DNA from: Dysgonomonas sp. 25
GTDB taxonomy: Bacteria > Bacteroidota > Bacteroidia > Bacteroidales > Dysgonomonadaceae
Assembly: GCF_010501075.1 (NCBI RefSeq)
Contig: NZ_QVMN01000005.1
Coordinates: 195,714 to 259,713 of the forward strand
Direction of reading: 5' to 3'
DNA length: 64,000 nucleotides
A model generated the notes under the pieces. It was not told where the DNA came from, did no database searches, and worked only from the letters and a program-made list of their open reading frames with translations. The position numbers were made by a program, and so were the translations under genes. This document shows positions 13,033 through 54,288 of the stretch, piece after piece (position 1 is the first letter of the stretch; the number at the start of each line of letters is the position of its first letter).

Positions 13033-13068
13033 TATAGATAAATATTTGGTAAAAGGGTAATGGTTCGT
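13033..13068 (-). promoter_or_regulatory. Shared phage-unit promoter element (distal tail gene)
   Basis: On the minus strand it reads CGAACCATTACCC, a short gap, then TTTATCTATAC. The CATTACC box and TTTATC are separated as -33 and -7 boxes would be, yet neither box fits the usual host TAnnTTTG pattern. The same layout, including the CGAACCATT start, precedes the terminase gene. Confidence 0.6.
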
Positions 13069-13117
13069 TTTTGTGTATTAATCTTCTTATATTTGTGCTG
13101 TAATATTGTGAATTAGT

Positions 13118-14077
13118 ATGGCAAAGAATAATAAATTAATCGTTCAAAATACAGAAATATCTTTCATAAGTCAGGCAAATGAAGATTATATCTGTCTTAC
13201 GGATATGGCGAAAGCAGCATCTGACGATGCTCGGGCTGCAGATATTATCAAAAACTGGATAAGGGGTAGAGGAACTATTGAATTCTTAGGGACTTGGGAA
13301 ACTATTTATAATCCAAATTTTAAAGTGGTCGAATTTGACCACTTTAAAAAAGAGGCTGGTTTACCGACGTTTACGATGAGTGTAAGTAGTTGGGTTGAAA
13401 AAACTGATGCTATCGGTATTTTCTCAAAAGCAGGGAAGTATGGTGGAACCTATGCACACAAAGATATTGCTTTTGAGTTTGGAGCAGCTATAAGTCCAAT
13501 GTTCAAGCTTTATTTGATAAAGGAATATCAAAGATTAAAAGAGGCTGAAACGAATCAATACGGCTTAGAATGGAATGTTAGGCGTGTTTTGAGCAAAGCT
13601 AATTATAGGATACATACAGATGCTATAAAGGAACACATTATTCCCCAGTCAGGATATGCAAAAAGCAAAGAATGGTTACTTTATGCTGATGAAGCCGACA
13701 TGTTAAATGTCGCATTGTTTGGTTGTACAGCGAAAGATTGGAGAGAAGCGAATATGGGTAGGGCTTTATCGGGTGAAAACATTAGGGATATGGCGAGCAT
13801 AAACGAATTAGCTATATTATCAAATTTAGAATCTCTCAATTCAACATTAATAAAAAATGGAGTAGCTAAAAAAGATAGGTTTAAAATATTGAGCCAGACT
13901 GCAGCAGAGCAAAAACACTCCTTAGATAGAATGGATATCCTTAAGTCTATAAAGAAAGAATCTACATTAACCTATGTAAATGCACAGAAACAACCTCAAT
14001 TATCTACTTTCAAACAAAATGTAGAAAAGAAAGAGAACTATAATCTTAATGAGGGTAAAGAGGATAATGACACATAA
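13118..14077 (+). CDS. KilA-N domain protein
   Basis: A 319-residue cytoplasmic protein with an N-terminal KilA-N DNA-binding domain: ICLTDMAKA near residue 27, IKNWIRGRGTIEFLGTWE near 46, and the conserved FTMSVSSWVEKTDAIGI and GKYGGTYAHKDIAFEFG segments (residues 86-125). KilA-N proteins are typical of phages and large DNA viruses but also occur on Bacteroidetes chromosomes, where they are thought to bind DNA. The C-terminal part is helical and less conserved. It diverges from the distal tail gene and has its own host-type promoter (TATATTTG at about 13092). An imperfect palindrome inside the gene recurs just after its stop codon, which may point to self-control. Confidence 0.75.
   Translation: MAKNNKLIVQNTEISFISQANEDYICLTDMAKAASDDARAADIIKNWIRGRGTIEFLGTWETIYNPNFKVVEFDHFKKEAGLPTFTMSVSSWVEKTDAIGIFSKAGKYGGTYAHKDIAFEFGAAISPMFKLYLIKEYQRLKEAETNQYGLEWNVRRVLSKANYRIHTDAIKEHIIPQSGYAKSKEWLLYADEADMLNVALFGCTAKDWREANMGRALSGENIRDMASINELAILSNLESLNSTLIKNGVAKKDRFKILSQTAAEQKHSLDRMDILKSIKKESTLTYVNAQKQPQLSTFKQNVEKKENYNLNEGKEDNDT
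13325..13350 (+). repeat. Palindromic 26-base repeat, copy inside KilA-N gene
   Basis: AAAGTGGTC and GACCACTTT arms flank a GAATTT centre. The 26 bases from GTGGTC through TTTAAAAA recur exactly at 14097-14122. Here they encode the VVEFDHFKK part of the KilA-N domain. Confidence 0.85.
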
Positions 14078-14096
14078 ATAGAACATCGTCTCTGAT

Positions 14097-14122
14097 GTGG
14101 TCGAATTTGACCACTTTAAAAA
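14097..14122 (+). repeat. Palindromic 26-base repeat, copy after KilA-N gene
   Basis: Exact non-coding copy of the palindrome located inside the upstream KilA-N gene, 19 bases past its stop codon. It could be an operator, a transcription-ending hairpin (A-rich, with no T-run on the gene strand) or a recombination footprint. Confidence 0.8.
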
Positions 14123-14215
14123 TAAAAAATGTTAAATTAAGTAAAACAAATGGAGTGGGATTAAACAATCGCTTAGTTTCGCTGTCTTATAATAAAACCA
14201 ATAATTATTCTGATT

Positions 14216-14698
14216 ATGAAGAAAATTACATTAATTGCCATTTTTGCCCTAACCGGCATATTATTTTCAGCAAATATTTCAGCGCAGACAGTGAAAGCAA
14301 CAGATGAAGCGATAAAGAACCTGAAACCATATCCCGAAAAAATGGGCGATATGGAACGACATGTTATCTTCCTCGAACCGAGGGCGGACGAAAGCCTGTA
14401 CAAGATAGAAATCATTGCGGGCATGTACAAAGAGGTAGACTGCAACCGCCACACGCTGGCAGGTGCGTTCAACGAAGGCACTGTGGAAGGCTGGGGATAC
14501 AGCTATTACACATTCGAAACGAACGGGCAGATTGCCTCTACCATGATGATGTGCCACGATCCTAAGACGACTAAGTTCGTATCGGGAAAGGGCGAAGTTG
14601 TACGCTACAACAGCCGTTTGCCGTTGGTTGTTTACCTTCCTCAAGGCGTGGAATTGAAATACCGCGTGTGGACGGCAGGCGAAATGTTGCCTGAATAA
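14216..14698 (+). CDS. eco: Ecotin, periplasmic serine protease inhibitor
   Basis: A 160-residue protein with a cleavable signal peptide (hydrophobic to ANISAQ, residue about 24) and the ecotin fold. Matching features are KPYPEKMGDMERHVIFL, the VDCNRHTLAG strand (Cys near 83), EGWGYSYYTFET, the reactive-loop region IASTMMMCHDP with Met as the likely P1 residue, and the closing VVRYNSRLPLVVYLP and LKYRVWTAGE. Ecotin dimers clamp trypsin-fold proteases in the periplasm and protect the cell from host or predator enzymes. The two Cys presumably form the usual disulphide. It converges with the terminase gene, with 6 bases between the stop codons. Confidence 0.9.
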   Translation: MKKITLIAIFALTGILFSANISAQTVKATDEAIKNLKPYPEKMGDMERHVIFLEPRADESLYKIEIIAGMYKEVDCNRHTLAGAFNEGTVEGWGYSYYTFETNGQIASTMMMCHDPKTTKFVSGKGEVVRYNSRLPLVVYLPQGVELKYRVWTAGEMLPE

Positions 14699-14704
14699 AG
14701 GAAA

Positions 14705-15877
14705 CTACTTCCTGCCCGCGATAACCGAATAGCTGAGCGCGTTGTTCCGTTCGAGCAACTTGTTGAGGCACACATAGCGTTGTGCGTCTATCGAGTGGTT
14801 GAACTTATCCTCGGGGCGGTTGACAAAGCGTCCGTGCTGGTCGGTTTGCCAGCGGTAATTGCGATATTCTTCGATGATATTCAGGCTGCGGCTTGTGACA
14901 TTTTTGTGGTAACGGTTGAGGATGGATATGCCGGCTATGATGCTGTCTTTACCCTTCTTTGCCGCCTCCACATGCCATCCTTGTGTCGTTATCTCTTTGA
15001 TGCTTTTCGGCTCGGCGCTGTCGGCAATGATAGGCGTATCGCGCGGAACAGCCATCTCGACAAGGTGGTCGGCTATCATCATATTGTCGTAGCCCTTGGC
15101 AAAGAGTAGTTCGTCTATCCACAATTCACCGCCCGACAGGCGTACGTCGACGATTGCCGTGGGGTCGTTCGTGAAGCCGAAATCGATGCCTATCCAGCGG
15201 CTTTTGTATAGCTCCGGCATATCGGCTGTTATATCCCAGTTGCGGATGATAGCCCCTTCGAGCATGCCGGTGACGCCTTCGCCGTAGATGCGCCACCAGT
15301 TTTCGTCGTCGCGGTTCGATTCTATCTCCTTCACCTGTGCCGCGCTCAGAAACTCGTTGTCTTTGTAGGTGGAATGGATGAGGAAAGCGTCCTCTTTGCC
15401 CAATACTTTCTCGTCGAGCCAAAAGGCATGCGAAGGGTTGCAGTCGAGGAATACATTCTTGGTGGTGCGGATAGCGAGCTGGCGGAATATCTCGTAGTCG
15501 ATATTGATGCACTCGTTGATGTAGAGGATATTGCGCGATGGCCCATGCACTTTGCCGGCATTGTCGGCGGAGAAGAATTCTATCATCGATTTGTTGATGG
15601 AGTAAATCTTTTCGGTGGCGTTCCAGCTGTGCGCATCCCAGCGTTCTTCGCGCAGAAGCATATCGCGGAAGTCGCGTATACAACCACGTTTCAGATGGGG
15701 GAGTGATTCGGATACGACCGATATAACCAGCGGCTCATCCGAGCGTTCGGCTAAGGAATAGAGTAATTGCAGGATGCTGTATGTCTTGGACGAGCGCGTC
15801 GAACCTTTGTTCACTATATAGCGATAACCGGCGTTGTATGCTGCCAGATTGCGCGCAAATACGGAAGTCGTCTTCAT
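14705..15877 (-). CDS. Phage terminase large subunit
   Basis: A 390-residue packaging motor with both catalytic halves apparently intact. The ATPase has Walker A GSTRSSKT at residues 25-32 and Walker B ILYINE at 117-122. The RNase H-like nuclease has Asp232 in GIDFGF, Asp286 in IIADSAEP and Asp364 in FNHSIDAQRY. Length is normal for this family (pfam Terminase_3 type). The enzyme pumps phage DNA into proheads and cuts it. No small terminase subunit is adjacent. The gene begins 10 bases from a TTTATCTATA element and about 90 bases from dispersed repeat copy A; its downstream neighbour is ecotin on the opposite strand, so it is transcribed as a single gene. Confidence 0.9.
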   Translation of the reverse strand: MKTTSVFARNLAAYNAGYRYIVNKGSTRSSKTYSILQLLYSLAERSDEPLVISVVSESLPHLKRGCIRDFRDMLLREERWDAHSWNATEKIYSINKSMIEFFSADNAGKVHGPSRNILYINECINIDYEIFRQLAIRTTKNVFLDCNPSHAFWLDEKVLGKEDAFLIHSTYKDNEFLSAAQVKEIESNRDDENWWRIYGEGVTGMLEGAIIRNWDITADMPELYKSRWIGIDFGFTNDPTAIVDVRLSGGELWIDELLFAKGYDNMMIADHLVEMAVPRDTPIIADSAEPKSIKEITTQGWHVEAAKKGKDSIIAGISILNRYHKNVTSRSLNIIEEYRNYRWQTDQHGRFVNRPEDKFNHSIDAQRYVCLNKLLERNNALSYSVIAGRK

Positions 15878-15886
15878 CTTTTTTTG

Positions 15887-15921
15887 TATAGATAAAGAAG
15901 TGGGTAAGTGGTGAATGGTTC
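15887..15921 (-). promoter_or_regulatory. Shared phage-unit promoter element (terminase)
   Basis: Minus strand reads CGAACCATTCACCACTTACC, six bases, then TTTATCTATAC. It is the best match to the element before the distal tail gene, aligning with it over about 38 bases with small gaps. The terminase ATG lies 9 bases downstream of TATA, so the transcript leader would be extremely short. Confidence 0.6.
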
Positions 15922-18399: not shown

Positions 18400-21015
18400 T
18401 TAAGATTTCGCTTCGGAATTGTAGGTGTCGGAATAATGATACTTCATATCCACCCGCACCTGTGTATCCTTGGTCGAATGCTTGATTGTGAGGTCGTCCA
18501 CTACAATATAGCGTCCCGTCGCAACCTCGTATACCGCCGGCGAAACGCTCATCTCTTTCAGCCAGTCGGCAAGCTCGTGGCGGATAGCCATCGTCTGCAC
18601 CGTAAAGGTTTCCTCTGCCGATTTATATTGCACGCCTTCCATCACGCTGCTTGTCGTGTAGCGCGGTTGCTGTGTGCGGTTGAAGGTTTTACCCGACGAT
18701 TTGAAATCCGTTTGCGACGATTCGGAGAAATTGAACGTCGACCATCCACCCAGCGAATTGAGGAAAGCAAAATCGCGTACGGCATAGAGGTGCGACGGCA
18801 ATATGTTGTATATCTGCGGGCTGCTCACCACCTGACCGTCGCGTGTGAGGCAGACCTTTACGATTCCCGTATTCGAATGGAGCGCAAGCAAAGAATCGAT
18901 ATCGAGGCGGATAGTATTCGCAATCGCCAAATCCTTGCACGACTGCTCGTGCGCCGTCACGCGTGTAATCAGCGTCCCCGACTGCGTAAGCAGTTCGTAT
19001 CGGATACCTATCGTGCAGCCGTTTGCCGCTTGATGATGGTATTTGTCCGACAAGAGGAAGTTGAAATACTGCGCCTGCCCCGCGATATGCGGCAACTCGG
19101 GCTGTCGCGTCAGCGGACGGATGGTATTATTTGCCATTACATCGTAGATGTAATCCGTCAGGTCATTCGCTTCGAGGTTGCGGTCGTAGCCTGTGATGGT
19201 GTACAAAACGTCCGACATATAAAAGACATCGTTCGTGTAGAACTGCTCGTCGTTGATGAGGCGTTTCCCGATAAAACGGTAATCCTGCACCGTTCCCGTA
19301 TCGCACCAATCCGCCGCCGTGAGGAACGTATCGGAATATTTTACGGGCTTCACCGCATTCAGGTCGAACCATACGGGAGCGTCGAGGTAGGCTTTAGAAA
19401 GGGTTGTGACAAACGTTCCCGGCACGCCGTTGTTGGTCGGGTCTTCGCCCAGAAAGATGCCTGTGTCCTTGTACATATCCATCTGTATCTCTATCTCGCT
19501 GTAACCTTGGCTGATAGCGTCGGTGGAAGCGGAAATCTCCGAAATCGGCTTCACATCGAGGAAATGGCTGTACAGGGCATTGTCCTTCGGCTTGATAGTG
19601 AAATTGTATTTCTGCCCGAAGCCTTTCGATACGATGCGGATAGCCGTCCCCATGCCCAGATTGCCGCTCATATCCGTCTGGAAAGGGAGCGAAATGTCGA
19701 AGTTCGATTTCAGGTAACTGTTTCGCAATAAGCATTCTTTCAGGCTGTTGGCTATCTCCTGCAAAGACCACGAAGGATAGTCGTCGCCCCCCTTAGCACC
19801 CAGATAGAATGTGCTGCTGTTCATCTCTTTGGGCTCCATTGTCCCGCGAAAGGTGTGTATTGTTCCGCTGTTTGTTTCGACGAGATTGAATTCCGTCACA
19901 TTCTTCTTATCGCTGTCCAAGCCTTTGCCTGTCACCGTCAGCACGATTTCGAGGCGTTTATCTTCTTGCGGAGTTTGCTGGGGAACAGGATCTTTGGGAT
20001 TGCCGAAGACGTGTACAAACGTGTTCCATAGCGTGCTGTCGGGTTCGATGGTGAAAGCATAATCGTCCGTAAAGCCGCGCGGAGTGAGGTATATCGATTT
20101 GTAAGGGTATCTGCCGTCTTCCAGAATAGGGCCTCCGATGGCGATGGAGAGATGGAAATTGTCTTTGAGGAACGTGTTTTGCTGCAGGCAGGCAAAAAAG
20201 GTGTCGGCAGCCTGTCCCGGTCCCCATTGAGGCACGCCCGAAGATGAGATAGGGCCTGTGTAAAACAGATTCTCGGTCGTAGAAGTTTCCGATGGATTGC
20301 TTGTTGCCCTGAAAATGTGCCTGATACCTGTTTTCTTCTCCACCACCGTAAATTTGGAGATGTTGTCGTAGATAGAGGGCGAGCTTCCTGCACGATAATG
20401 GTAGCCGTTGCCCACGATGCCGAAAATGGTTTGTGCTTTCTCGCGAATATCGGTGGTCTTGAAAAACTTCACGTCATTGTAGCCATCGGTGTGGAAGTCG
20501 AGGCAGTAATCGTTTCCCGGCACTTTGGCTTTGATGTGGACAAATATGCCGGTCACTTCCTCGGGATTGGCCGGATTCTCTTTTTTCAGTACCAGGTTGG
20601 TATTATACCTCTCCTTGAAGTAGTCACGATTGGCAATACAATCCGCTACTGCCCTTCCCATTTGCTGTTCAGACCATTTAGGCTTTATCCCTCCCCAGTT
20701 GAAAGCCATTTCGAATGTTGTGTCTGTACCTGTATACGACTCCCCTATGTCTAATCCTCTGAATCCAAACTTCTTACCTGTTGCAACTTCGGTAATCGTA
20801 AACGGAGAAATGTTCTTGTACTTGTTCCATATAATAGTCTTGATATAAGCATTATTCAGAATCTCCATATACACCTCGAAGTAAACATCATCCGCCGTAT
20901 CGGGTGGCAGCGGCTCGGATTCGAACTCGATGAAATTCGGATTGTTAGCCATCGAAACCTTAACGGGCGAAACACTCTCTTTTGCAATCTCTTTGTTTTT
21001 GATAAAAAATCCCAT
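18400..21015 (-). CDS. Phage tail-associated protein with internal triplication
   Basis: An 871-residue protein without a signal peptide. It carries three diverged copies of a 130-150-residue unit, at about residues 50-185, 195-345 and 350-490. Each has a beta start ending in (T/R)HTFRG or KFGFRG, then PSWS or PKWSEQ, then a helix with AxxLKECLLRNSYLKSNF or an equivalent, then a (Y)xF-T-IxP close. The last 350 residues are different and beta-rich. Very large beta proteins like this follow the distal tail protein in Bacteroidales phages, so I infer a tail tip, fibre or host-contact role. It lies between the hicBA terminator and repeat copy B, alone on its strand. I found no TTTATCWATA element before it. 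Confidence 0.6.
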   Translation of the reverse strand: MGFFIKNKEIAKESVSPVKVSMANNPNFIEFESEPLPPDTADDVYFEVYMEILNNAYIKTIIWNKYKNISPFTITEVATGKKFGFRGLDIGESYTGTDTTFEMAFNWGGIKPKWSEQQMGRAVADCIANRDYFKERYNTNLVLKKENPANPEEVTGIFVHIKAKVPGNDYCLDFHTDGYNDVKFFKTTDIREKAQTIFGIVGNGYHYRAGSSPSIYDNISKFTVVEKKTGIRHIFRATSNPSETSTTENLFYTGPISSSGVPQWGPGQAADTFFACLQQNTFLKDNFHLSIAIGGPILEDGRYPYKSIYLTPRGFTDDYAFTIEPDSTLWNTFVHVFGNPKDPVPQQTPQEDKRLEIVLTVTGKGLDSDKKNVTEFNLVETNSGTIHTFRGTMEPKEMNSSTFYLGAKGGDDYPSWSLQEIANSLKECLLRNSYLKSNFDISLPFQTDMSGNLGMGTAIRIVSKGFGQKYNFTIKPKDNALYSHFLDVKPISEISASTDAISQGYSEIEIQMDMYKDTGIFLGEDPTNNGVPGTFVTTLSKAYLDAPVWFDLNAVKPVKYSDTFLTAADWCDTGTVQDYRFIGKRLINDEQFYTNDVFYMSDVLYTITGYDRNLEANDLTDYIYDVMANNTIRPLTRQPELPHIAGQAQYFNFLLSDKYHHQAANGCTIGIRYELLTQSGTLITRVTAHEQSCKDLAIANTIRLDIDSLLALHSNTGIVKVCLTRDGQVVSSPQIYNILPSHLYAVRDFAFLNSLGGWSTFNFSESSQTDFKSSGKTFNRTQQPRYTTSSVMEGVQYKSAEETFTVQTMAIRHELADWLKEMSVSPAVYEVATGRYIVVDDLTIKHSTKDTQVRVDMKYHYSDTYNSEAKS

Positions 21016-21542: not shown

Positions 21543-21995
21543 TTATGAATTAAAATACTTAATCAAATCATCTGTCAAAGCTTCGAAGAGCATCTCCGCC
21601 CATCTCGTCTCGAACTGTTTGCCGATACGTTCTTCGAGTGTTGCCATAATGGGGCGCGGTTCGATGCCGTCGCGCCAGATAGCCTCCGCAATGGCAAAAA
21701 GCGTATCGTTGTCCGGCTCTATGCCTTTGCCTATCGCCCATTCGCGCAGCGCGTCTATTGGCGGGCGTTTGCCTTGCCTCGGTGCACGCCCGTTTTCGAT
21801 ATACTCGATGTAGTTGTCGAACAAGAGGCTGATAACCACGCTGTCGCTTTCCGTTTGCACCTGCGTGCGGATTGTCTCGCGGAGGTGGCTGCCCGAGAGG
21901 CTTCCCCCATCCGTCTCGGCGACAATGATTTGCGCCAGAGCGAGCATTTCGGTGGCTATCACTTCGGCAACCTTTTTCAAGCGGGTGCTCATCAT
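21543..21995 (-). CDS. HK97 gp10-like head-tail joining / tail completion protein
   Basis: A 150-residue protein with the features of the HK97 gp10 family: a long N-terminal helix (STRLKKVAEVIATEMLALAQIIV), a Gly-Ser turn GGSLSGSHLRETI, a beta section and ENGRAPRQGKRPPIDALREWAI, where the NGRAP motif is diagnostic. These proteins sit at the head-tail junction. It overlaps the upstream gene by four bases (ATGA), so their translation is coupled. Confidence 0.75.
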   Translation of the reverse strand: MMSTRLKKVAEVIATEMLALAQIIVAETDGGSLSGSHLRETIRTQVQTESDSVVISLLFDNYIEYIENGRAPRQGKRPPIDALREWAIGKGIEPDNDTLFAIAEAIWRDGIEPRPIMATLEERIGKQFETRWAEMLFEALTDDLIKYFNS

Positions 21996-22534
21996 TTCGA
22001 GGTTTTGAGGGTGAATACGGGGAATTGCTTGCTATACACCTCGCAATTGCTGGCGGGAGATACGGCAAAGCCTTGCAATGCGGAGCTCTGCTCAAAGTCT
22101 CCGTTCTCATCGAACTGCTCGTCTATCAGGCAGAGGTTCTGCATATTGACTTGCGTAAACGAGAGCGAGAAGCGGCATCCGCAGGCGTTGTTGTCGTAGT
22201 AGTCGCAAAGGGTGATATACGACCAGTCGGGGCGGATGGAGATGCTTTCCTCCTGCTGTTTGATGCGTTCGATGATGTTCAGCCCGATGGAGAAGGCGAG
22301 GTTTTGCAGCTCGCTCACGCTATGCTCCTCATCGGGCAGGAAAAGGATGGCGAAATTGACCGAATTGCTGAATACATGGTTCTGGTTGCTACCGTAAATC
22401 GGGTCTTCGAGCCAGAGGAGGGGATGCTGTTCGCGTCCGCTACCGAGTTCGTAGCTGCGGTTGTAGTAGAAAGCCCTGATGGCTTTGTGCTGCCGTGCCT
22501 GACGGCGGAAAATGTCGATAATCGTTGTAATCAT
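21992..22534 (-). CDS. Phage head-tail / tail-terminator candidate
   Basis: A 180-residue protein (MITTIIDIFRRQARQHK) coupled to the gp10-like gene. The position before gp10 and the mixed alpha/beta pattern (helix, PDEEHSVSELQNLAFSIGLNII helix, paired strands) fit a neck or tail-terminator protein of Bacteroidales phages. I recognise this context, not a specific named family. A TTTATCTATA element lies 16 bases before its ATG. Confidence 0.5.
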   Translation of the reverse strand: MITTIIDIFRRQARQHKAIRAFYYNRSYELGSGREQHPLLWLEDPIYGSNQNHVFSNSVNFAILFLPDEEHSVSELQNLAFSIGLNIIERIKQQEESISIRPDWSYITLCDYYDNNACGCRFSLSFTQVNMQNLCLIDEQFDENGDFEQSSALQGFAVSPASNCEVYSKQFPVFTLKTSK

Positions 22535-22550: not shown

Positions 22551-22575
22551 TATAGATAAAGTCAAGGGATTATGA
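22551..22575 (-). promoter_or_regulatory. Shared phage-unit promoter element (head-tail operon)
   Basis: Minus strand: CATAATCC, six bases, TTTATCTATATAAAG. The upstream box is closer than in the terminase and distal tail copies (14 against 20-21 bases), so the TTTATCTATA part is the more convincing half. Confidence 0.5.
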
Positions 22576-22611
22576 TTGAAGGTTTTTAACGGAGGGCTAT
22601 CAATTCACTTT

Positions 22612-26656: not shown

Positions 26657-26657
26657 T

Positions 26658-32682: not shown

Positions 32683-33057
32683 CTACCTCCTCATCCACTT
32701 TGCACCCAGCCAGAGGGCGAGTAGTAAAAGGAGAATCCGTCCGCACCAGACCTGGAACGACTGGAAGGAGGACAAACGGTTGACCTCTCTGGTTTCTATG
32801 ACAGGATAAGGAACTCGTATGGTGTCGTTTATGTGGATAGAATCGCTAATGATGCGGTCGCGGTAGAGATAGCGGTATTTCTCGAGCCAGAGGGTATCGC
32901 CTTTCTCGCGGACAAAGATGCTGTCGTAATGATGCACCGAATCGTGCATCAGGCGGTCTTTGTATTCCGTTCGGACGGTTTCTACGGGGATGTAAACCGT
33001 TTTAGCCCGGCAGCCGGCAAGAAGGAGTAGCGAAAGGAGAAGTATATATTTGCTCAT
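32683..33057 (-). CDS. Spanin-like lysis lipoprotein candidate
   Basis: A 124-residue protein with a lipobox LLLAGC near residue 16 and a C-terminal membrane span (CGRILLLLLALWLGAKW). The middle is rich in Tyr, Arg and Asp and probably forms a periplasmic rod. A lipoprotein end plus an inner-membrane end would span the periplasm as a unimolecular spanin does, disrupting the outer membrane at the last stage of lysis. Last gene of a holin-amidase-spanin cassette, overlapping the amidase by four bases (ATGA), which also decides the start. Position and shape are the basis, not sequence family. Confidence 0.6.
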   Translation of the reverse strand: MSKYILLLSLLLLAGCRAKTVYIPVETVRTEYKDRLMHDSVHHYDSIFVREKGDTLWLEKYRYLYRDRIISDSIHINDTIRVPYPVIETREVNRLSSFQSFQVWCGRILLLLLALWLGAKWMRR

Positions 33058-33458
33058 AGCGAAAATTCTTTTGTGACATCGAAACACGGGCAGGCCTTGT
33101 TGGCAAACTCTTTGTGTCCGTGTATTGTCAGGTTGGGGTGACGGTTAGTGATTTCTGCTATCAGGTTGTTCAATGCGACTTTTTGCGCCGGAGTGCGCGT
33201 GTCGCAGGGTTTTCCGTTTTCGTCTAATCCTCCGATGTAGCAGATGCCGATAGAGGTTACGTTTTGCCCGACGCAATGTGCCCCGATTTCGTCCTCGTTG
33301 CGTCCTGTTTCTATTGCGCCATCGAGGTCGATAACGTAATGGTAGCCGATTTTGCGGAATCCTCTTGCCCGATGCCAGCTGTCGATGTCTTTTGCGCTGA
33401 AATCCTGTCCCACTTTGGTGGCCGAGCAGTGGATGATGATTTTATCTATCTTTCTCAT
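33054..33458 (-). CDS. N-acetylmuramoyl-L-alanine amidase (phage endolysin)
   Basis: A 134-residue T7-lysozyme-type amidase. The zinc site fits His10 (IIHCSA), His113 or His115 (TIHGHKEF) and Cys123 or Cys125 (KACPCF). A tyrosine before YVIDLDG near residue 40 is also typical. The enzyme cuts the amide bond between muramic acid and the stem peptide and degrades the wall during lysis. There is no signal peptide, so it depends on the upstream holin to get out. It overlaps both neighbours, so the cassette is one coupled unit. Confidence 0.85.
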   Translation of the reverse strand: MRKIDKIIIHCSATKVGQDFSAKDIDSWHRARGFRKIGYHYVIDLDGAIETGRNEDEIGAHCVGQNVTSIGICYIGGLDENGKPCDTRTPAQKVALNNLIAEITNRHPNLTIHGHKEFANKACPCFDVTKEFSL

Positions 33459-33912
33459 TTTCTCCTTCCTGTTTTTTCGTTATTTCAGATATGGCTTTCA
33501 ATAGGTCGTCGCGGTTCTCGAGTAGCGTTACCAATTCGTTGAGGCTGCGGTTGAATTTGCGTTTGTCTTTGTCGTTGGCCTTTTCGAATACGGATTTACA
33601 TTCGATAAAAATCAGGAAAGCAGCAGCGATGAGCGTCACGATGGGCAGGGGATAGAAAAACATGCCGATGCAATCGAACATGAAAGCGAAGAGCATAAAG
33701 GCAAAGTAAAGGACGGCTTTGTTGACCGTTTGTTTGAATCCGTAGGAGGTGCGGACTTCGCCGCGTTCTTTTGCTTTGCGTACACCGCTGATGAGGTCGA
33801 TAATGATGGCTATGGCTACGAACAGCCACATGATGCCTACGATAGCCAGTTGTGTGCGCAGGGTGGTGCTGTCGCCCGAAAGGAATGGATTGATAAATAA
33901 AAGTGTGTGCAT
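33442..33912 (-). CDS. Phage holin family protein
   Basis: A 156-residue protein with three or four membrane spans in its first 110 residues (AIVGIMWLFVAIAIIIDLISG, the VLYFAFMLFAFMFDC span and PIVTLIAAAFLIFIE) and a basic, charged cytoplasmic tail. It matches the Bacteroidetes-type holin family that precedes amidase genes. Holins open the inner membrane at a set time so that the endolysin can reach the wall. First gene of the cassette, with a TTTATCAATA element 30 bases upstream. Confidence 0.8.
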   Translation of the reverse strand: MHTLLFINPFLSGDSTTLRTQLAIVGIMWLFVAIAIIIDLISGVRKAKERGEVRTSYGFKQTVNKAVLYFAFMLFAFMFDCIGMFFYPLPIVTLIAAAFLIFIECKSVFEKANDKDKRKFNRSLNELVTLLENRDDLLKAISEITKKQEGENEKDR

Positions 33913-33942: not shown

Positions 33943-33972
33943 TATTGATAAAGAATAGGGACTTTGGTAATG
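33943..33972 (-). promoter_or_regulatory. Shared phage-unit promoter element (lysis cassette)
   Basis: Minus strand: CATTACC, thirteen bases, TTTATCAATA. It has the same box-to-box distance as the distal tail copy, with one A-for-T change in the second box. Confidence 0.6.
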
Positions 33973-40323: not shown

Positions 40324-42123
40324 TTACATTGGGTTAAGCGTTGATAATACTAATTCTATCTGCATATATTTTCCGGTGATAGGATAGGCTGGAATGGGAA
40401 CTCCGGATTCAGCAGTTATCATATTATAGAATCCAGGGTAGCCGGTAGCTATGTAGGTGTTGTTCGCTGATTGCATTTCACCGCCTTTTGCACTATTGTT
40501 TTTCATCAGGCAACGCATATCATGGGGAACAACATCGAACCAGACAGGCTTCTGAATACTACTCCAAAAAAATTTGTCGATAGTTTCTGTTGCAAAATCG
40601 AATGCTTGTTTCCAACAACGCCGCAGGCGACAATCGCCACTGATAGAGAAGGTTCCTCCAGTAGACAGGAACGAAGCGAAGCATGGATATTGCTTCCCGT
40701 TGTAAGTAATGTTTCCTGCCGGATTATCAACATCTACCGGTTCAACAAAATACCAATAGCCACTTTCGAGTGAGCCGGTAGTGATTTTGTCGGTTGGGAG
40801 AGTATCCACTATACGCATTTTGATAGTACTCAGAATAGCAAGGTCTTTTACTTTGTAAACCTGTTCGTTACCGGAAGATGTTATCCAAGAGTTTACGTCT
40901 GTAGCTCCGATAAAGATATTTTCCCGCTCTTCCAACGAAGAGGTATATGCAACGCCATTATAACTGATACTGGCTTTCAGATTGTCAGCAGAACGTACAA
41001 GATAGAATTCACCTTCTTCTATTTGTCCGTTTATAACAGGCACGATAGAAGGTGTGCTATCGATAAATACACCATATTGGGCTGCCAGATTGTGAAGTAT
41101 GTTGATAGAATTGATTTTTTGCAATCCTTCTCCTAACCAGATAATATTGGAGGTTAATGTATCGGTATGTTGTTCTCTGATATCGATATCATCTTTATAA
41201 GCAATACTACCATCCGACACATTCAGGTTGGCAGAAGGGATGAAGCCTATTGCATTGGCTGATGTTGTATCGGTAGTAATGGCTATTGGTTCAACAGTTT
41301 CTTGTTTCCATCCCAATTGAACAAAACGTCGTTTCTGAAAATTGTCGATAATAGAATCACGAATAACACATCCTCCGGTTGTAGAATTATTAGCAAAAAT
41401 CCAACGGTACATGGGCAGGTTTGTTTCTCCGTACTCCGAACCGGTAGGAACTGTTAAGCTTTGCGCCACACATCGATCGACAAAATGTTGTCGTAATTCC
41501 GTTTCTGTATTTCCAGTAAGAGGGTTATAATCTGTTTCGTCTCCTATCTTGAATCTACAGTTGTCGAAGCCGAGATACTGCCAATAGATACTGTTCAGAT
41601 TACTTTGCGATATAGATATATTACAGTCCGACAATAGACCAAGCGACATATTACTGTTTAATGATGGTATATTGATACCGTGATAGCTATTGTTGGAGGC
41701 ATTTGCTGCCGTAAAAGGTTGGTCGGCTACCACCATACAATATGACATCGTTTGAATTGTTGTCGGGAAATCTTGTCTGATTATACATCTGTAAAATCCT
41801 GTCTGGTTGTATCTATAATTGGTTATGTCTGATATAATCGAATCGGTTATTCGTAATATATCCGATTGTAATGATGTACCATTAAATTCGGTATTCCCGC
41901 TGCCATACAAATTTGTTCTTACTGTCCCGTTAATAATGTCCGGAAAGTTCCCGTTTGATAACACGTACTTAACTTCAATTGCAGTTCTGAAATTTGCAGG
42001 AAGTGGATTATCCTTTGTCCCTGTCCCATTTTTACTACCCAAAGCACTTACATATACCGGTGAAGCTATTAAAGCTCCATTCTCATCATAATACCTCTCC
42101 TTCCAATTATAATTATTCGCCAT
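40324..42123 (-). CDS. Phage tail fibre / receptor-binding protein candidate
   Basis: A 599-residue protein without signal peptide. It opens with MANNYNWKERYYDENG and GSKNGTGTKDNPLPANFRTAIEV, a turn-rich start typical of right-handed beta-helix proteins (pectate-lyase-like), and continues with short regular strands full of Asn, Ser, Ile and Asp, as in fibre and tailspike shafts. The Cys-containing middle may form the receptor head. It is near the end of the protease-capsid operon, where Bacteroidales phages often put fibre genes. Confidence 0.55.
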   Translation of the reverse strand: MANNYNWKERYYDENGALIASPVYVSALGSKNGTGTKDNPLPANFRTAIEVKYVLSNGNFPDIINGTVRTNLYGSGNTEFNGTSLQSDILRITDSIISDITNYRYNQTGFYRCIIRQDFPTTIQTMSYCMVVADQPFTAANASNNSYHGINIPSLNSNMSLGLLSDCNISISQSNLNSIYWQYLGFDNCRFKIGDETDYNPLTGNTETELRQHFVDRCVAQSLTVPTGSEYGETNLPMYRWIFANNSTTGGCVIRDSIIDNFQKRRFVQLGWKQETVEPIAITTDTTSANAIGFIPSANLNVSDGSIAYKDDIDIREQHTDTLTSNIIWLGEGLQKINSINILHNLAAQYGVFIDSTPSIVPVINGQIEEGEFYLVRSADNLKASISYNGVAYTSSLEERENIFIGATDVNSWITSSGNEQVYKVKDLAILSTIKMRIVDTLPTDKITTGSLESGYWYFVEPVDVDNPAGNITYNGKQYPCFASFLSTGGTFSISGDCRLRRCWKQAFDFATETIDKFFWSSIQKPVWFDVVPHDMRCLMKNNSAKGGEMQSANNTYIATGYPGFYNMITAESGVPIPAYPITGKYMQIELVLSTLNPM

Positions 42124-42313
42124 CTTGCACCTCCTTTGTTGAAATGATTACACGATTAGTGGGTAGAATGAGGCAGATACAGTTATCAAACTCTGCCATG
42201 TCACCCTGTTTCAATTCGTTGAAAACAACCTGAAAATCTTTCGGTTGAGCGTCGAAAAAGACAGTGTCGTCAATTTCGTACTCTTTGTCGTCTTTTATTA
42301 CTTTGTAAATCAT
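42113..42313 (-). CDS. Small phage protein
   Basis: A 66-residue acidic protein (MIYKVIKDDKEYEIDD) that overlaps the fibre gene by 11 bases and the next upstream gene by four (ATGA). Beta-rich, no known family. The tight overlaps make it a real operon member; possibly a fibre chaperone or connector. Confidence 0.6.
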   Translation of the reverse strand: MIYKVIKDDKEYEIDDTVFFDAQPKDFQVVFNELKQGDMAEFDNCICLILPTNRVIISTKEVQDGE

Positions 42314-42738
42314 GCTATTATTGCTTTTGCGTAAATAAATACAAACATTTTCTGTGTATCGGTCGAGACCGGAGTCGCATTCAGCGTGATGACCGATTTT
42401 GCCGGAACATCGACCGAAAGAGCCGAATCCAATGCTATATCATATGATGTGCCTTCCACGTCGATGGATAATTTATACACATCTTTCACTCCGATTTGGT
42501 AGATAGTCATCGACTCATCAATATACATCTGTGGACTTTCGGAACTCCCTATCGTAAAAGACAGGCGTCGCTCCAACGGTAACCGCTTTGCATATTCGAG
42601 TAGATTGTCGAGCGAATATCTTCCCGACTGAAAACTTCCATCGGTGTCTTCTTTCGAGCCGAAAACCCAGAAGCCTTCCGGCATATTTATTTCCGGTAGC
42701 TCGGAGAGCCTTACCGGATTGATTTTTTCATTTGCCAT
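42310..42738 (-). CDS. Phage tail or fibre-associated protein
   Basis: A 142-residue protein with INPVRLSELPEINMPEGFWVFG near the start, a pattern I associate with small structural proteins preceding fibre genes in Bacteroidales phages, and a C-terminal beta domain (KSVITLNATPVSTDTQ). It is coupled to the downstream small gene. Exact role unknown. Confidence 0.5.
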   Translation of the reverse strand: MANEKINPVRLSELPEINMPEGFWVFGSKEDTDGSFQSGRYSLDNLLEYAKRLPLERRLSFTIGSSESPQMYIDESMTIYQIGVKDVYKLSIDVEGTSYDIALDSALSVDVPAKSVITLNATPVSTDTQKMFVFIYAKAIIA

Positions 42739-42758
42739 AATTTTCTTTTTCTGTTTTT

Positions 42759-43316
42759 TTATATTGCTATAGTATTCATCCCGTTTTCCGTTAAAACAGC
42801 TTGCTCTGCTTCCGTTCCCAACACATTGACTGTGTTGTAGCCATCAGGATTTAATTCGAAAAGCGGAAAGGCAGATTCCTTATTAAGTGTAATCTGATAA
42901 CCTGTCACTTCACCAACTTTGCCCGATTGCTGACCGAATGTGAGGCTTGCCCCGCCATCCGAACCGAAGCAATAGGTTCTCCCTTGCGTGTTGCGGAAAA
43001 CGACTAAATAATTGTGCAGAGAAGCTGCTAATAAGTCAGCCGATTTTGTCCCTTCCACGGTGCGCACATACGTCCAAAGTTCCTGCCGGTACAATCCGTT
43101 ACTTTGCGTTTCGGTGAAATAGCTTTCGTCTACAGCTCCCAGTTGGATAAAATCGTTGCGGGAGTTTATTTTTTCGACATAACAGCTATTGTATAACCCG
43201 TCGTCGCGGAAACGATAAGATACGAAATCGCGTATGTCGAGCAGCCATATTTCGGTAATGCCTCCATTGTTGTAACTGCCTGTATGCAGTATATCGCGAA
43301 TAGTTCTACTGTTCAT
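42759..43316 (-). CDS. Phage tube-like protein 2
   Basis: A 185-residue protein. Its C-terminal half reads LVVFRNTQGRTYCFGSDGGASLTFGQQSGKVGEVTGYQITL, which lines up with the same part of the next upstream gene (TAVVVDKSGRAIVLGRNNG...SGAADADATGWTVTM). The two are therefore probably paralogues with the tail-tube beta-sandwich fold. One may form the tube and the other a cap, spike or variant ring. Confidence 0.5.
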   Translation of the reverse strand: MNSRTIRDILHTGSYNNGGITEIWLLDIRDFVSYRFRDDGLYNSCYVEKINSRNDFIQLGAVDESYFTETQSNGLYRQELWTYVRTVEGTKSADLLAASLHNYLVVFRNTQGRTYCFGSDGGASLTFGQQSGKVGEVTGYQITLNKESAFPLFELNPDGYNTVNVLGTEAEQAVLTENGMNTIAI

Positions 43317-43394
43317 TTGCCATTGTTATTTGCAGAAAAAGCGGCGCCTGCTATTCGTGGCAACCGCTTTTATCTTGTGAAACATCTATATCGG

Positions 43395-43940
43395 TTATGG
43401 CGTAACAGTCGTATTGTCAGCAATGGCTGCAATTACTGATTCGTCTTTCAACAAACGAGCCATCTCGATTTCGGTACCAGCCATCGTAACTGTCCAACCT
43501 GTGGCGTCGGCGTCGGCGGCTCCCGAAGCGTAGTTAAACGCTGTGGCTGTCAGACCGTTGTTGCGTCCCAAAACGATTGCTCGTCCCGATTTATCGACTA
43601 CTACTGCTGTGAATTTACCTAAACTCAAGGCTTCGTCCTGATTCAATAGTTCGTAATCGTAGTTTTCGACGGTAAAGTTCAACGTATGCGTGCGGTATTT
43701 TCCGCCGTTTCCGTTCTGAGCCAGCTCGTCGGAGAATGATGCCGTGTTGTCGATGAAAGCTATTTTGTAAGCTTTTTCGGTGACATCGGCAAGGGTGATG
43801 GCGTCGATAGTTGTTTTGTCGGCATCCTCGAAGGTATAGGCATTCTCGGTGTCGTAGTTGAACAGGTAAACCGCTTTGACTCCTGCCGGAGCATATTGGC
43901 ACTTGTTTCTGGTTATACTTGAAGTTAGTTTACATCCCAT
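43395..43940 (-). CDS. Phage major tail tube-like protein
   Basis: A 181-residue protein with MGCKLTSSITRNKCQYAPAGVKAVYLFNY at its start, a beginning that I know from Bacteroidales phage tail tube proteins, followed by a beta-rich body. I chose the ATG before GCKLTSS because the upstream codons run into a host-type repeat. Tube subunits stack as hexamers around the tape measure to make the tail. Located just after the capsid gene as usual. Confidence 0.6.
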   Translation of the reverse strand: MGCKLTSSITRNKCQYAPAGVKAVYLFNYDTENAYTFEDADKTTIDAITLADVTEKAYKIAFIDNTASFSDELAQNGNGGKYRTHTLNFTVENYDYELLNQDEALSLGKFTAVVVDKSGRAIVLGRNNGLTATAFNYASGAADADATGWTVTMAGTEIEMARLLKDESVIAAIADNTTVTP

Positions 43941-44038
43941 AATAATTCGGAAATTTGATAATTTGAAAATGTGATAATTAAAAACATGAGCATGTGCTAA
44001 TTGGCATATTAACTCATTAGCACATTGGCTCATTAATT
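43941..44038. repeat. Host-type intergenic repeat inside phage operon
   Basis: Contains repeated short words GATAATTTGAAAATGTGATAATT and, read from either side, GAGCCAATGTGCTAATGAG and GCACATGCTCATG. This kind of word-repeat is common between Bacteroidales host genes and unusual in compact phage operons (segments given in parts). Confidence 0.55.
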
Positions 44039-45108: not shown

Positions 45109-46299
45109 CTATTTCCTGCGTTGCAGCGTTTCGTTGAGGGCTACGGCCATGCGTTCGGCAGTAGACATAGATAGCTGATCGGCAGCCGATTGACGTTGCA
45201 CGGCAGGACGTGCCGAAGGTGTCTGGCGGCGAAGCGTTTCCACTTGTTTAGATGCCTCTTCCAATGCGGCCGATAGTTCGTCGATAGCTTTCTGCATTTC
45301 GGCGATTTTAGCTTTCAATAGTTCGCTTTTGCCTTTTGGATCAGCCGGTTGTGCTTCTTCCGGTTCATCGTCAAGAGGTTGCTCTGCCAATTGGCGGTAA
45401 TAACGCCGAAGCGCTTCGGGAGCCGATTGGCTGTCGGGATTGCTGATGGCATCTGCCGCCGGACGCGTTTCGACCAAGTCTCCTTTTTCGTCGATAACGA
45501 GCAGATTGCCGTTTGCCAGTTTATGCTCTCCGGCAGGCATTTGCTCTTCGTCCATCGTCGCAAAGCCATCCTGATCGACATACACCTCTTTGCCATCGGC
45601 AAGGATAAAGATGATAAAAGGTTCGCCACTATCGGTCGTGTCCCTTTTCTTTACGTCTTCGATGCCGAGCAGCAAATGAGCGATACGCCGCAAAAGCGTC
45701 TTTTTCTGTTTACGGTTGTTCATCTTACGTTTTTTGTTTTTAGAATTGATTTGATGTTTGTTCAGGGCAATTTCCTGATTGAAAAGCCCTTCGAGCGAGA
45801 ATCCCTTGACATGGCCCGCCATGACCTGCTCGTCCCAATAGTTGCGATCTTCGATTTTATAGCTGCACATAAGTGTGCCTTGGGGGAGGTCGTCGAAGCC
45901 TAATGCGCGGGATTTATCTCGTTCGGGGTCTTCTACTATCCACAACTCAGTGAGGTAGTTGCCTTGCAGCGGTTGCGCATGTTGATGCGTTGTTGTGGTG
46001 AGGGCTATGCCTGTGCGCATCATCTTTTGTGCAATTTTTCGTATTTGTTCGGCTGAGAAGCGGATATAATGCTCGCCCATCGTTGGCGAGTTGCGATAGA
46101 TTAATTGATCGGGTTTGAGGACGACGCCTGTCAGTACTTGTTTTTGTTCGTCGCGGTTCAGGTGCAATGGTTGCATTTGCTGGCTGAGGGCGACAAAATC
46201 GACTTCGTTGGCAGGACAATCGACAAACGAAATGGCATAAATACCTGTCTCGTCTTCGAGGTTTTCGTCAATCAAACAGTTGTAAACGGGAAGTTTCAT
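45109..46299 (-). CDS. Phage prohead protease fused to scaffold-like domain
   Basis: A 396-residue protein. Residues about 1-185 resemble the XkdF-type prohead serine protease: ISFVDCPANEVDFVALS at the start, a His-containing TTTHQHAQPLQGNYLTELWIV strand, and the catalytic Ser in VKGFSLEGLF. The rest is a basic linker, a beta stretch (FIIFILADGKEVYVDQDGF) and a long Glu/Lys/Ala coiled coil (ELLKAKIAEMQKAIDELSAALEE), typical of a scaffold. Fused proteases of this kind shape the prohead and then degrade the scaffold. An internal ATG at MNNRKQKK could give scaffold alone. First gene of the head operon, with TTTATCAATA 71 bases upstream. Confidence 0.75.
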   Translation of the reverse strand: MKLPVYNCLIDENLEDETGIYAISFVDCPANEVDFVALSQQMQPLHLNRDEQKQVLTGVVLKPDQLIYRNSPTMGEHYIRFSAEQIRKIAQKMMRTGIALTTTTHQHAQPLQGNYLTELWIVEDPERDKSRALGFDDLPQGTLMCSYKIEDRNYWDEQVMAGHVKGFSLEGLFNQEIALNKHQINSKNKKRKMNNRKQKKTLLRRIAHLLLGIEDVKKRDTTDSGEPFIIFILADGKEVYVDQDGFATMDEEQMPAGEHKLANGNLLVIDEKGDLVETRPAADAISNPDSQSAPEALRRYYRQLAEQPLDDEPEEAQPADPKGKSELLKAKIAEMQKAIDELSAALEEASKQVETLRRQTPSARPAVQRQSAADQLSMSTAERMAVALNETLQRRK

Positions 46300-46370: not shown

Positions 46371-46398
46371 TATTGATAAAGGGCTTGATATGGGATGG
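46371..46398 (-). promoter_or_regulatory. Shared phage-unit promoter element (head operon)
   Basis: Minus strand: CATCCCATATC, then AAGCCC and TTTATCAATA. The second box is exact, the first is weaker (CATCCC) and about 17 bases away. The leader to the start codon is about 70 bases, the longest of the set. Confidence 0.5.
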
Positions 46399-46498
46399 AC
46401 GATTTTAACATTTGAGGGAGGAATTGTTTCGTATGAGAAAGAGAAGATCGGCAGTCGCCCGGTACTACAAAAAAATATATCTTTACAGAAAAAAGAGA

Positions 46499-51573: not shown

Positions 51574-51608
51574 TATTCTGTTTTTTGTCAAATTATTCGG
51601 TTATAGTA

Positions 51609-53257: not shown

Positions 53258-53379
53258 GTTTTTCTGAAAAAATATCCTTGTGCATTTAAACTATCCATCC
53301 TCAAAATAGTCATATATTTGAGGATGTTTTTTTATCAGACGTTTTGTGCGATTAATAGGTAAACTAAAAATATAGAATT

Positions 53380-53736
53380 ATGAAAACAAGTTTTTATTCT
53401 CAAGTTATTCAGACGATTATTGCGGTTGCATTAGTAGTTATTATTATCCAGAATGCATTGCCCAATGCTGTAACCCCCGCTCATGCACAAGCTCCCATTC
53501 CCGCACCTGCCCAGCAGATACAAAGCGGCGTAGTGGATGTGAATCTGGTGCAGGTGAATGGAGTGGAGTTGTATGGTCGAACAGTGAAGTTTGCCGATGG
53601 CGAAGTAAATTCCTATATCCCAATGTCAGTCGAATATGTAGACCCCAAAACGAGCACATTTAATGTGAATATTAAGGAAGTAGATGGTAATTACATTCAT
53701 AATATAAACGGTTCTTTATCTGTATATACAAAATAA
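53380..53736 (+). CDS. Small secreted protein, array copy 2
   Basis: A 118-residue paralogue: hydrophobic start, TPAHAQAPIPAPAQQ, then IQSGVVDVNLVQVNGVELY and a tail with YIPMSVEYVDPKTSTFNVN that closely matches copy 3. About 20 bases after it a short copy of the tape-measure start region appears. Confidence 0.65.
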   Translation: MKTSFYSQVIQTIIAVALVVIIIQNALPNAVTPAHAQAPIPAPAQQIQSGVVDVNLVQVNGVELYGRTVKFADGEVNSYIPMSVEYVDPKTSTFNVNIKEVDGNYIHNINGSLSVYTK

Positions 53737-53756
53737 TAATAATATTTTTCTACAAG

Positions 53757-53790
53757 TTTATCTATAAGTGAAAAACTTAAGATGAAAGAT
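53757..53790 (+). repeat. Partial duplicate of tape-measure promoter and start
   Basis: TTTATCTATAAGTGAAAAAC and TTAAGATGAAAGAT match the tape-measure upstream sequence and first codons at 54279-54312 with two or three changes. Here the frame closes after eight codons (MKDNDLSC). The duplicate and the original flank array copy 3. Confidence 0.75.
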
Positions 53791-53866
53791 AATGACTTGT
53801 CATGTTGAGTGTTAGTGGAGTATCTTGCTCCTGAAGACAAAAGCGAACAAACTAAAATATGAAATT

Positions 53867-54217
53867 ATGAAAACAGATTTGTACACTAAAATTATCCTCA
53901 CCGTTATTGCTGTTTTTCTTGCAGCTAATTTCTTTAAAAACAATGATATTGTTACCCCAGCCCATGCACAGGCTCCCGTTCCTGCACCTACGCAACAGAT
54001 ACAAAGCGGCGTAGTGGACGTGAATCTGGTGCAAGTGAATGGAATTGATATATACCGTAGCGCTGTTGATTTACAAACAGGAGAAAAGAAAGCCTATATT
54101 CCTATATCACTTGAATACGTGGATAAAAATACCAGCACATTTAATGTGAATGTTGCAGAATATGGCGGGGAGAGGATTACATCTGATTATTATATATCCG
54201 TATGGAATGCTAATTAG
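53867..54217 (+). CDS. Small secreted protein, array copy 3
   Basis: A 116-residue paralogue with TPAHAQAPVPAPTQQ and IQSGVVDVNLVQVNGIDIY. I chose the ATG at MKTDLY, which copies 1 and 2 share. It is enclosed by two copies of the tape-measure start sequence, which suggests that the copy arose or was inserted there. Confidence 0.65.
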   Translation: MKTDLYTKIILTVIAVFLAANFFKNNDIVTPAHAQAPVPAPTQQIQSGVVDVNLVQVNGIDIYRSAVDLQTGEKKAYIPISLEYVDKNTSTFNVNVAEYGGERITSDYYISVWNAN

Positions 54218-54278
54218 AATTTTATTATTCTTAGGTTTATTGTTGCAAATGTTAAGTTATTGAAGATAATACAATCAT

Positions 54279-54288
54279 TTTATCTATA
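54279..54288 (+). promoter_or_regulatory. Shared phage-unit element (tape measure)
   Basis: TTTATCTATA ending 12 bases before the tape-measure ATG. The upstream box is not clear (ACAATC only), so it is the weakest of the set by context but exact in its core. Confidence 0.5.

Follow-up and report, generated by a model that had tools for sequence, protein, structure and literature searches.

A two-part promoter-like element shared by dispersed, gene-transfer-agent-like phage genes of Dysgonomonas, and a candidate sigma-like reader

Introduction

Late promoters that are read by phage-encoded sigma factors are known from T4, with gp55, and from SPO1. Dedicated regulators have also been described for gene transfer agents (GTAs): GafA of Rhodobacter capsulatus contains sigma-like regions and was suggested by its author as a possible alternative sigma factor (PMC6363796), and it acts through the omega subunit of RNA polymerase (PMC9638019), and the CcGTA of Caulobacter crescentus uses GafY and GafZ (PMC11150451). 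In Bacteroides, promoters carry the -7 box TAnnTTTG (PMC7366714). Among gut bacteria, Oscillospiraceae and Ruminococcaceae have been reported to show GTA activity, and Bacteroides to carry out lateral transduction (PMC12946183). The present analysis concerns a 64-kb stretch of Dysgonomonas sp. 25 (genome G000, contig C54:195714-259713, within a draft genome of 3.74 Mb), hereafter the window, in which phage-type genes are preceded by one promoter-like element, TTTATC[TA]ATA with an upstream box. We consider it probable that this element is the two-part promoter of a domesticated, GTA-like phage gene set, most likely read by a sigma-like factor that has descended together with it.

An open-access literature search returned no paper combining Dysgonomonas with gene transfer agents, and among the titles listed from the wider literature none dealt with a Bacteroidota GTA or its regulator. 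The main text of a Flavobacterium start-site study, figure logos excepted, gives no word beginning TTTATC or TATCTA (PMC9723704).

The element in the window

Seven exact copies of TTTATC[TA]ATA are present on the two strands of the window, where a first-order Markov model expects 0.72, in line with the preliminary description of this DNA, which had put the chance expectation at about one copy. When one mismatch is allowed, the window holds 40 copies compared with 18.45 ± 4.10 in 100 shuffles, none of which reached 40. All seven copies are intergenic with respect to the called open reading frames (ORFs) and have a same-strand ORF, always a phage-type or phage-linked one, 19-110 bp downstream, the gene starts being approximate owing to a simple ORF caller. 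Six of the sites had been named before, and each carries the exact word (13033-, 15887-, 22551-, 33943-, 46371- and 54279+); the seventh, at 53757+, is added here. The elements are as follows, with scores in bits from a matrix of relatives' sites.

13033..13061, minus strand: element of the tail unit; core TTTATCTATA at 13033-13042, upstream box at about 13056-13061 with A at -16; 27.0 bits
15887..15915, minus strand: element of the terminase unit; core at 15887-15896, upstream box at about 15910-15915; 29.6 bits; the motif precedes TerL in relatives too
22551..22579, minus strand: element of the head-tail unit; core at 22551-22560, upstream box at about 22574-22579; 26.4 bits
33943..33971, minus strand: element of the lysis unit; core TTTATCAATA at 33943-33952, upstream box at about 33966-33971; 17.0 bits
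46371..46399, minus strand: element of the head operon; core TTTATCAATA at 46371-46380, upstream box at about 46394-46399; 22.3 bits
53738..53766, plus strand: seventh element; core at 53757-53766; 29.5 bits; a 130-amino-acid (aa) ORF lies downstream
54260..54288, plus strand: element of the tape-measure unit; core at 54279-54288; 23.5 bits; the motif is also found in relatives
58100..58109, plus strand: degenerate element TTTATCATTG, followed by TATAAAA; lies before the gene of a small protein, relatives of which have the motif

An A at position -16 is present at all seven exact sites. The upstream box had been described as CATTACC-like, which holds for this A, the remainder being looser than CATTACC. 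Similarly, the extended alignment of the first two sites is confirmed in that a stretch from CGAACCATT is common to both, with a one-base offset; it is limited to those two, and CGAACCATT was therefore rejected as part of the general element. The core, TATCTATA, lacks TTTG and, as had been claimed, is unlike the host box TAnnTTTG; of 54 upstream regions that bear the motif, only 2 were found to contain that box.

When the sites before nine genes of the genus are aligned on the word, 52 of 53 carry A at -16, and T.AT stands at -18 to -15 in 28 of the 53. The distance from the word to the ATG ranges from 19 to 81 in the present genome and reaches 139 in relatives, and is often only 19-45 bp. Two parts at a constant spacing, ahead of a start codon at a variable distance, are, as far as sequence can tell, promoter-like in form. 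A ribosome-binding or start-codon feature was rejected on the same ground, the distance to the ATG being variable and that to the A at -16 constant. As a separate observation, the stretch 53757-53800, upstream of the 130-aa ORF, appears by eye to be a near copy of the tape-measure promoter and the first codons behind it.

Conservation of the element in relatives

The loci of relatives, which belong mostly to the same genus, with some of the family and some prophage-like, were compared over the upstream 130 bp after removal of identical upstream regions. The relaxed word [ATG]TTATC[AT]ATA precedes 52 of 111 operon-leading phage genes, as against 3 of 78 internal genes and 4 of 270 other genes (leading versus other genes, Fisher p = 5e-28, a value that, like the other p-values here, serves only as a guide since the genomes are related and not independent). 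The strict word gives 37/111, 0/78 and 1/270, respectively. In two further genera (g3 and g10), TTTATCTAT[ACT] was found in 16 of 24 upstream regions, and in g11, the most diverged genus, AATATCAATA was found in 7 of 10, g11 being represented by a single genome whose two clusters are contiguous, may be prophages and show about 40% capsid identity; both patterns were picked after reading the sequences, that of g11 by eye, and without a control. Thus, the occurrence of the motif before orthologous genes in relatives, which the preliminary description had offered as its own test, extends through the genus and to two other genera.

A strict pattern, TTATCTATANNNTAAAA, was drawn from the logo of relatives' sites, so that re-finding the genes behind the logo is partly by construction; over 25 whole genomes it gives 103 matches versus 17 for the reversed pattern. 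It has no match in G016, which is 98% complete and contains no terminase, tape measure, protease or capsid, nor in G007, G011, G013, G015 and G024. Of 69 distinct sites examined, 44 have within 110 bp an ORF of at least 60 aa and 25 do not; 9 sites are internal to ORFs. Members of the phage set account for 27 of the 44 ORFs (7 tape measures, 6 small terminases, 5 portals, 3 head-tail proteins, 2 proteases, 2 tail proteins, 1 terminase and 1 DUF6712 protein), of which 21 were assigned by direct BLAST match and 6, all tape measures, by group; the others comprise 8 members of one 92-aa family and 9 single cases. The independent finds are the 6 small terminases and the 92-aa family, neither of which had contributed to the logo.

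The sigma-factor-like protein and its covariation with the element

The candidate reader is encoded outside the window:

C54:187456-188055: 204-aa sigma-like protein of the present genome, 8 kb to the left of the window

In G002 (D. mossii), most of the phage genes lie in one region, followed by an early-type module of a repressor, a DnaD-like, a DnaC-like and a 201-aa sigma-like protein. Within the genus, 20 of 25 genomes contain the sigma-like protein. In a set of 101 genomes from the family, it was found in 24 of the 25 that have the capsid gene (G018 being the exception) versus 4 of the 76 that do not, namely G013, G023 and G024, in which the terminase is present, and G033, in which the terminase was not looked for; fragment matches in G016 and G087 were left uncounted. 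Linkage does not explain this co-occurrence, since it holds in G034, where the two genes lie on one contig 2 Mb apart (sigma-like gene at 0.77 Mb, capsid at 2.83 Mb). Among 393 genomes of the order, 10 have a sigma-like match; five are in this family and the others are weak (best E 2.5e-17).

Two sequence types of the protein, distinguished by eye at the N-terminus, occur in the genus, and the element follows them. The relaxed word precedes 42 of 59 leading genes in genomes with the first subclade and 1 of 31 in genomes with the second (p = 1.6e-10), a count that leaves out G011, G018 and G021, where no sigma-like gene was found. Genomes with the second subclade carry a changed, related word, WTTATCT, which ends differently and often has upstream of it a box resembling TTCATCA; this variant was fitted by eye without a control. 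In the three genomes in which no sigma-like gene was detected, the word precedes 1 of 1 (G011), 3 of 4 (G018) and 1 of 1 (G021) leading genes. From these comparisons, the sigma-like protein and the motif appear to diverge together. The relaxed word is absent from the 130 bp ahead of each of 20 sigma-like genes, as is expected of an early gene; TTTATCT lies near those of G002 and G020.

No Sigma70 or other Pfam sigma model matched 20 members at E <= 0.5, and because curated sigma models do not match, the protein is called sigma-like and is not assigned to the sigma-70 family. AlphaFold predicts two helical domains with a mean predicted local distance difference test score (pLDDT) of 80.8. Among the 50 Foldseek rows listed, the titles of 46 name sigma factors or chains of RNA polymerase or transcription (initiation) complexes, the other four being DnaA, two response regulators and Rv1404. 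Residues 119-204 superpose on domain 4 of E. coli sigma70 with 2.5 Å over 81 residues and Z 9.3, a range in which helical proteins can match by chance. A profile comparison by hhalign with five extracytoplasmic function (ECF) sigma factors of the same genome gave 89.2%, with E 2.2e-6, over 147 columns across both domains; the control, the small terminase, which is a helix-turn-helix protein, gave 19.3% over 20 columns.

In the present genome, the sigma-like gene stands in a module at C54:187447-191183 (L255:11734-15470), together with genes for proteins of 120 aa and 118 aa and a 584-aa gene that is primase-like by eye; replication-type genes would then persist in a dispersed set. At C21:453312-453896 (L032:11313-11897) lies a 64% relative of the XRE/S24 repressor that stands beside the early module of D. 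mossii, and it is a candidate for the switch of the set.

The phage-type gene set

The phage-type genes of the window are listed below. For the tail, head-tail and tape-measure genes, the names come from position and from similarity in relatives' phage clusters, not from family models.

1431..2567, plus strand: portal protein; phrog_11226
9993..12998, minus strand: 1001-aa tail-type protein; kept in relatives' phage gene clusters, no Pfam or PHROG match, named by position only
14705..15877, minus strand: terminase large subunit; Terminase_3C, phrog_2
18400..21015, minus strand: 871-aa phage-cluster protein, further downstream of the head-tail unit in the same direction; no significant family match
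21543..21995, minus strand: 150-aa head-tail type protein, second of its unit; no Pfam or PHROG match
21992..22534, minus strand: 180-aa head-tail type protein, first of its unit; no Pfam or PHROG match, similar genes in relatives' phage clusters
32683..33087, minus strand: possible Rz-like spanin, a weak match; phrog_456, E 0.022
33054..33458, minus strand: endolysin; Amidase_2, phrog_822
33442..33912, minus strand: holin; Phage_holin_4_1
40324..44033, minus strand: remaining head operon genes, of 212, 185, 142 and 599 aa
44039..45022, minus strand: major capsid-type protein; phrog_11320, phrog_1623
45109..46299, minus strand: head maturation protease; Peptidase_S78_2
53825..54217, plus strand: 130-aa protein; relatives adjoin the tape-measure gene in another genus
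54301..55866, plus strand: tape-measure type protein, so named for its position and its similarity in relatives; Pfam and PHROG gave no match
58117..58395, plus strand: 92-aa membrane-type protein (FDRKPFNCRPC); by eye a member of the family recurrent behind the motif in relatives

The 92-aa family is perhaps a new part of the phage set. Behind the gene at 58117-58395, an 81-aa ORF with CASC stands at 58392.

Genes for the virion, packaging and lysis are intact: TerL, TerS, the portal, protease, capsid, holin and endolysin by family match, and the tail genes by similarity in relatives only. Host genes separate the units, for instance that of phosphoenolpyruvate (PEP) carboxylase at 23847-26486. 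The nearest named relatives of the terminase belong to four Dysgonomonas genomes and one metagenome-assembled genome titled Prevotella, at 69-72% identity. TerL is free of internal stops in 23 of the 25 genomes of the genus, the present one included, the best matches elsewhere being 67-72% identical, and the tape measure was found in 21 and the protease in 18 of the 25. A second terminase match occurs in G007, G020 and G024. Copies are mostly one per genome across the genus, and the distances of four proteins correlate at rho 0.18-0.58, a comparison made among the proteins themselves. Several relatives show partial tape-measure matches; G021 and G023 keep the terminase and tape measure, with the capsid and protease not found, which may reflect partial loss or divergence.

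The dispersal is seen at chromosome scale in G019, a single contig in which the terminase lies at 4.54 Mb, the tape measure at 4.97, the protease at 5.02 and the small terminases at 0.99 and 4.31. Since the units lie far apart in single-contig genomes (G019, G034), the genes are not one self-replicating unit, G002 having mostly one region. An ordinary prophage, i.e., a contiguous genome with integrase and replication genes, was rejected, as the units stand among host genes in the window and elsewhere. Intact, dispersed and conserved through the genus, the set is GTA-like by these sequence features.

A contiguous phage cluster, G017:C86:104000-143999 (L193-L194), is related to the set, adjoins a recombinase-like gene, carries TTTATCAATA before its protease and has a sigma-like paralog on the same contig; it is possibly a mobile cousin of the set. 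G007:C184, considered in the same connection, matched the set in the terminase alone, at about 38-40%. In IMG/VR, 9 capsid loci and 4 sigma-like loci were found.

The word across the genome

TTTATC[AT]ATA occurs 210 times in the whole genome versus 80 times for the reversed pattern, and is thus enriched beyond the phage genes. Within the window, the exact word bears out the claim that no host gene has the element upstream; genome-wide, the word is not restricted to phage genes. In a comparison sample of 800 kb, made of contiguous blocks from five contigs, there are 40 copies, of which 22 lie inside ORFs and 18 are intergenic, and 2 stand within 110 bp before a same-strand start. Placement before a same-strand start distinguishes the window (7/7) from the sample (2/40; Fisher p = 5.7e-7), and the even spread over host genes, which the preliminary description had named as an outcome that would speak against it, was not seen in these 800 kb.

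Many intergenic copies belong to dispersed repeats located behind host genes, and some of these repeats continue with AAGAAAAGTTGACAAG. The A at -16 is present in 14 of the 18 intergenic copies of the sample and in 22 of all 40, which makes it a weak filter against decoys: it does not separate gene promoters from repeat copies. Its presence in gene-less copies suggests that some of these are promoters without a gene. Dispersed intergenic repeats with TTTATCTATAYAAGAAAAG followed by AGTTGACAAG repeats were noted at C4:47734, C5:36911, C43:220137 and C55:245201 (L015, L016, L021, L024); several score 16-23 bits, like the promoters of the phage set, with no gene behind them, and they may be orphan promoters, short RNAs or captured copies.

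Finding further members of the set

Copies of the word with an ATG 4-26 bases behind were sought throughout the genome, which gave 44 places, compared with 24 for the control. Nine rows, representing eight sites, belong to the phage set, and five of these sites are in the window. Three genes outside it, all standing among host genes, were thereby found:

C43:131129: terminase small subunit; phrog_1482, Sf6_terminase
C54:163880: DUF6712 gene; site without A at -16
C54:159990: 233-aa gene, which adjoins head-tail genes in relatives' phage clusters; site without A at -16

The word also lies 27 bp before the ATG of an AAA_15 ATPase gene at C32:425753, which was considered as a possible additional member of the regulon from the present genome alone. 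Most of the other places lie inside ORFs, in repeats or without an ORF. A second small terminase, at C21:163805, has the word with one change.

The matrix, built from 46 sites of relatives only, was scanned over 1.03 Mb of the present genome (1,025,244 bases, of which 2,000 without a listed match were counted twice), some stretches having been picked because they contain the word. It gave 20 matches above 18 bits versus none in the reversed sequence, and 7 of these are at the set: the terminase, 53757, tail, head-tail, tape measure, protease and small terminase sites.

Mechanism and alternative explanations

The preliminary description proposed that a common regulator or alternative sigma factor serves the dispersed units. 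This gains support from sequence comparison, in that the motif predicts phage-type genes not seen before and the sigma-like protein co-occurs and covaries with it. In the proposed promoter, the upstream box with its near-invariant A at -16 would come first, and TTTATCTATA would be followed by a start region rich in A. The sigma-like protein would be produced first, under separate control, and would then guide RNA polymerase to the word-bearing units, so that the packaging, head, tail and lysis genes rise together wherever they are located. The element is most likely a promoter and the sigma-like protein most likely its reader; the set may still produce particles, and the earlier suggestion that it stays functional would follow from its intact, conserved genes.

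Several observations weigh against this reading. In G018 and G021, the motif stands before phage-set genes with the sigma-like gene undetected; this is the main result of the kind, and G021 is 99% complete, with the capsid and protease also not found there. More than half of the leading phage genes in relatives (59/111) lack the relaxed word, the portal gene at 1431-2567 has no motif within 250 bp upstream although several relatives do, the A at -16 is not kept in g3 and g10, and the relatedness of the genomes noted above tempers the p-values. In the present genome, TTATCTATANNNTAAAA has 1 match and its control also 1, and many of the roughly 210 copies of the word lie away from genes. Two of the three newly found genes, DUF6712 and the 233-aa gene, lack the A at -16, and their sites are absent from the best 45 matrix matches listed; moreover, the other 13 of the 20 matrix matches above 18 bits are in repeats, intergenic or at other places that are not known phage-set starts. 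As for the sigma-like protein, sequence comparison with Pfam and PDB gave no match and that with PHROG no significant one, its AlphaFold model has a predicted template modelling score (pTM) of 0.42, and the best Foldseek E is 0.022, with none below 0.001 among the rows listed.

It is rather unlikely, in our judgment, that the element, while serving the set as its promoter, has a different reader, either a host ECF sigma factor, such as that encoded at 32059-32571, or the primary sigma factor with an activator. Such a reader would account for the motif in G018 and G021, where no sigma-like gene was detected. Next to the lysis unit, 32059-32571 encodes a 170-aa protein with ECF sigma domains; of the six bases fixed in the host -7 box TAnnTTTG, TATCTATA has four (T, A, T and the second T of TTT); and the Rhodobacter and Caulobacter GTAs use activators (PMC9638019, PMC11150451). 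Against it, the motif changes with the phage-linked sigma-like protein, a pattern not predicted by a general host sigma factor or by an unlinked factor. Two genes of the window considered as readers for their position were set aside: the ECF sigma gene 32059-32571, with no match in relatives' annotated phage loci among the matches listed, its distribution not having been searched, and the KilA-N gene 13118-14077, likewise with no match there among those listed and no dedicated search.

The proximity of the motif to the ATG, often just 19-45 bp, and the A-rich stretch after it would also suit a motif that is no promoter core, serving instead as the operator of a DNA-binding regulator or acting in the mRNA close to the start codon. 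We regard this as improbable, since the distance to the ATG runs from 19 to more than 80 bp while the spacing to the -16 A stays constant, and another promoter is not evident, the host -7 box being present in 2 of the 54 motif-bearing regions. Finally, the word might be a frequent intergenic repeat word that stands before phage genes by chance, as its roughly 210 copies, many in dispersed repeats, could suggest; its recurrence before orthologous genes in many species and further genera, its position bias and its prediction of further phage-set genes leave this hardly credible. A promoter read by the co-descending sigma-like factor is thus preferred. Beyond it, a wider proposal is finely balanced between acceptance and doubt: that a GTA-like element with its own sigma factor spans several genera of one Bacteroidota family, that sigma factor and promoter word have coevolved, allowing the genes to move singly and yet be co-expressed, and that the gene-less repeats are orphan promoters, seeds or traces of the scattering.

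Comparison with known systems

If the proposal is true, a dedicated sigma factor and a shared promoter would explain how a phage broken up across a chromosome is expressed as a single programme. The motif would further offer a route to the remaining parts of the element from sequence alone, as with the small terminases and the 92-aa family here.

The RcGTA of Rhodobacter resembles the present set in that phage-derived genes are turned on by one dedicated regulator with sigma-like regions, GafA (PMC6363796, PMC9638019). GafA, however, is described as a multi-domain activator with a DnaA-like region, in another phylum, whereas here both sigma-like domains are in one 204-aa candidate and one promoter word extends across many units. 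The CcGTA likewise has dedicated regulators for its cluster and, posed as a question, for accessory genes elsewhere (PMC11150451); as described there, it differs in employing activation and antitermination on one 14-kb cluster, with no shared sigma-type promoter before separate units. With the Bacteroidota ECF sigma factors, the candidate shares the predicted fold and the profile over domains 2 and 4, but it is missed by the Pfam sigma models and accompanies a phage-derived gene set. The element itself is like the host primary-sigma promoter (TAnnTTTG at -7) in lying upstream of genes and beginning with TA, and differs in that TATCTATA contains no TTTG. A parallel is found in T4 gp55 and SPO1, where one phage-derived sigma factor serves the virion genes; in contrast to those phages, the genes considered here are dispersed in the host chromosome across a genus.

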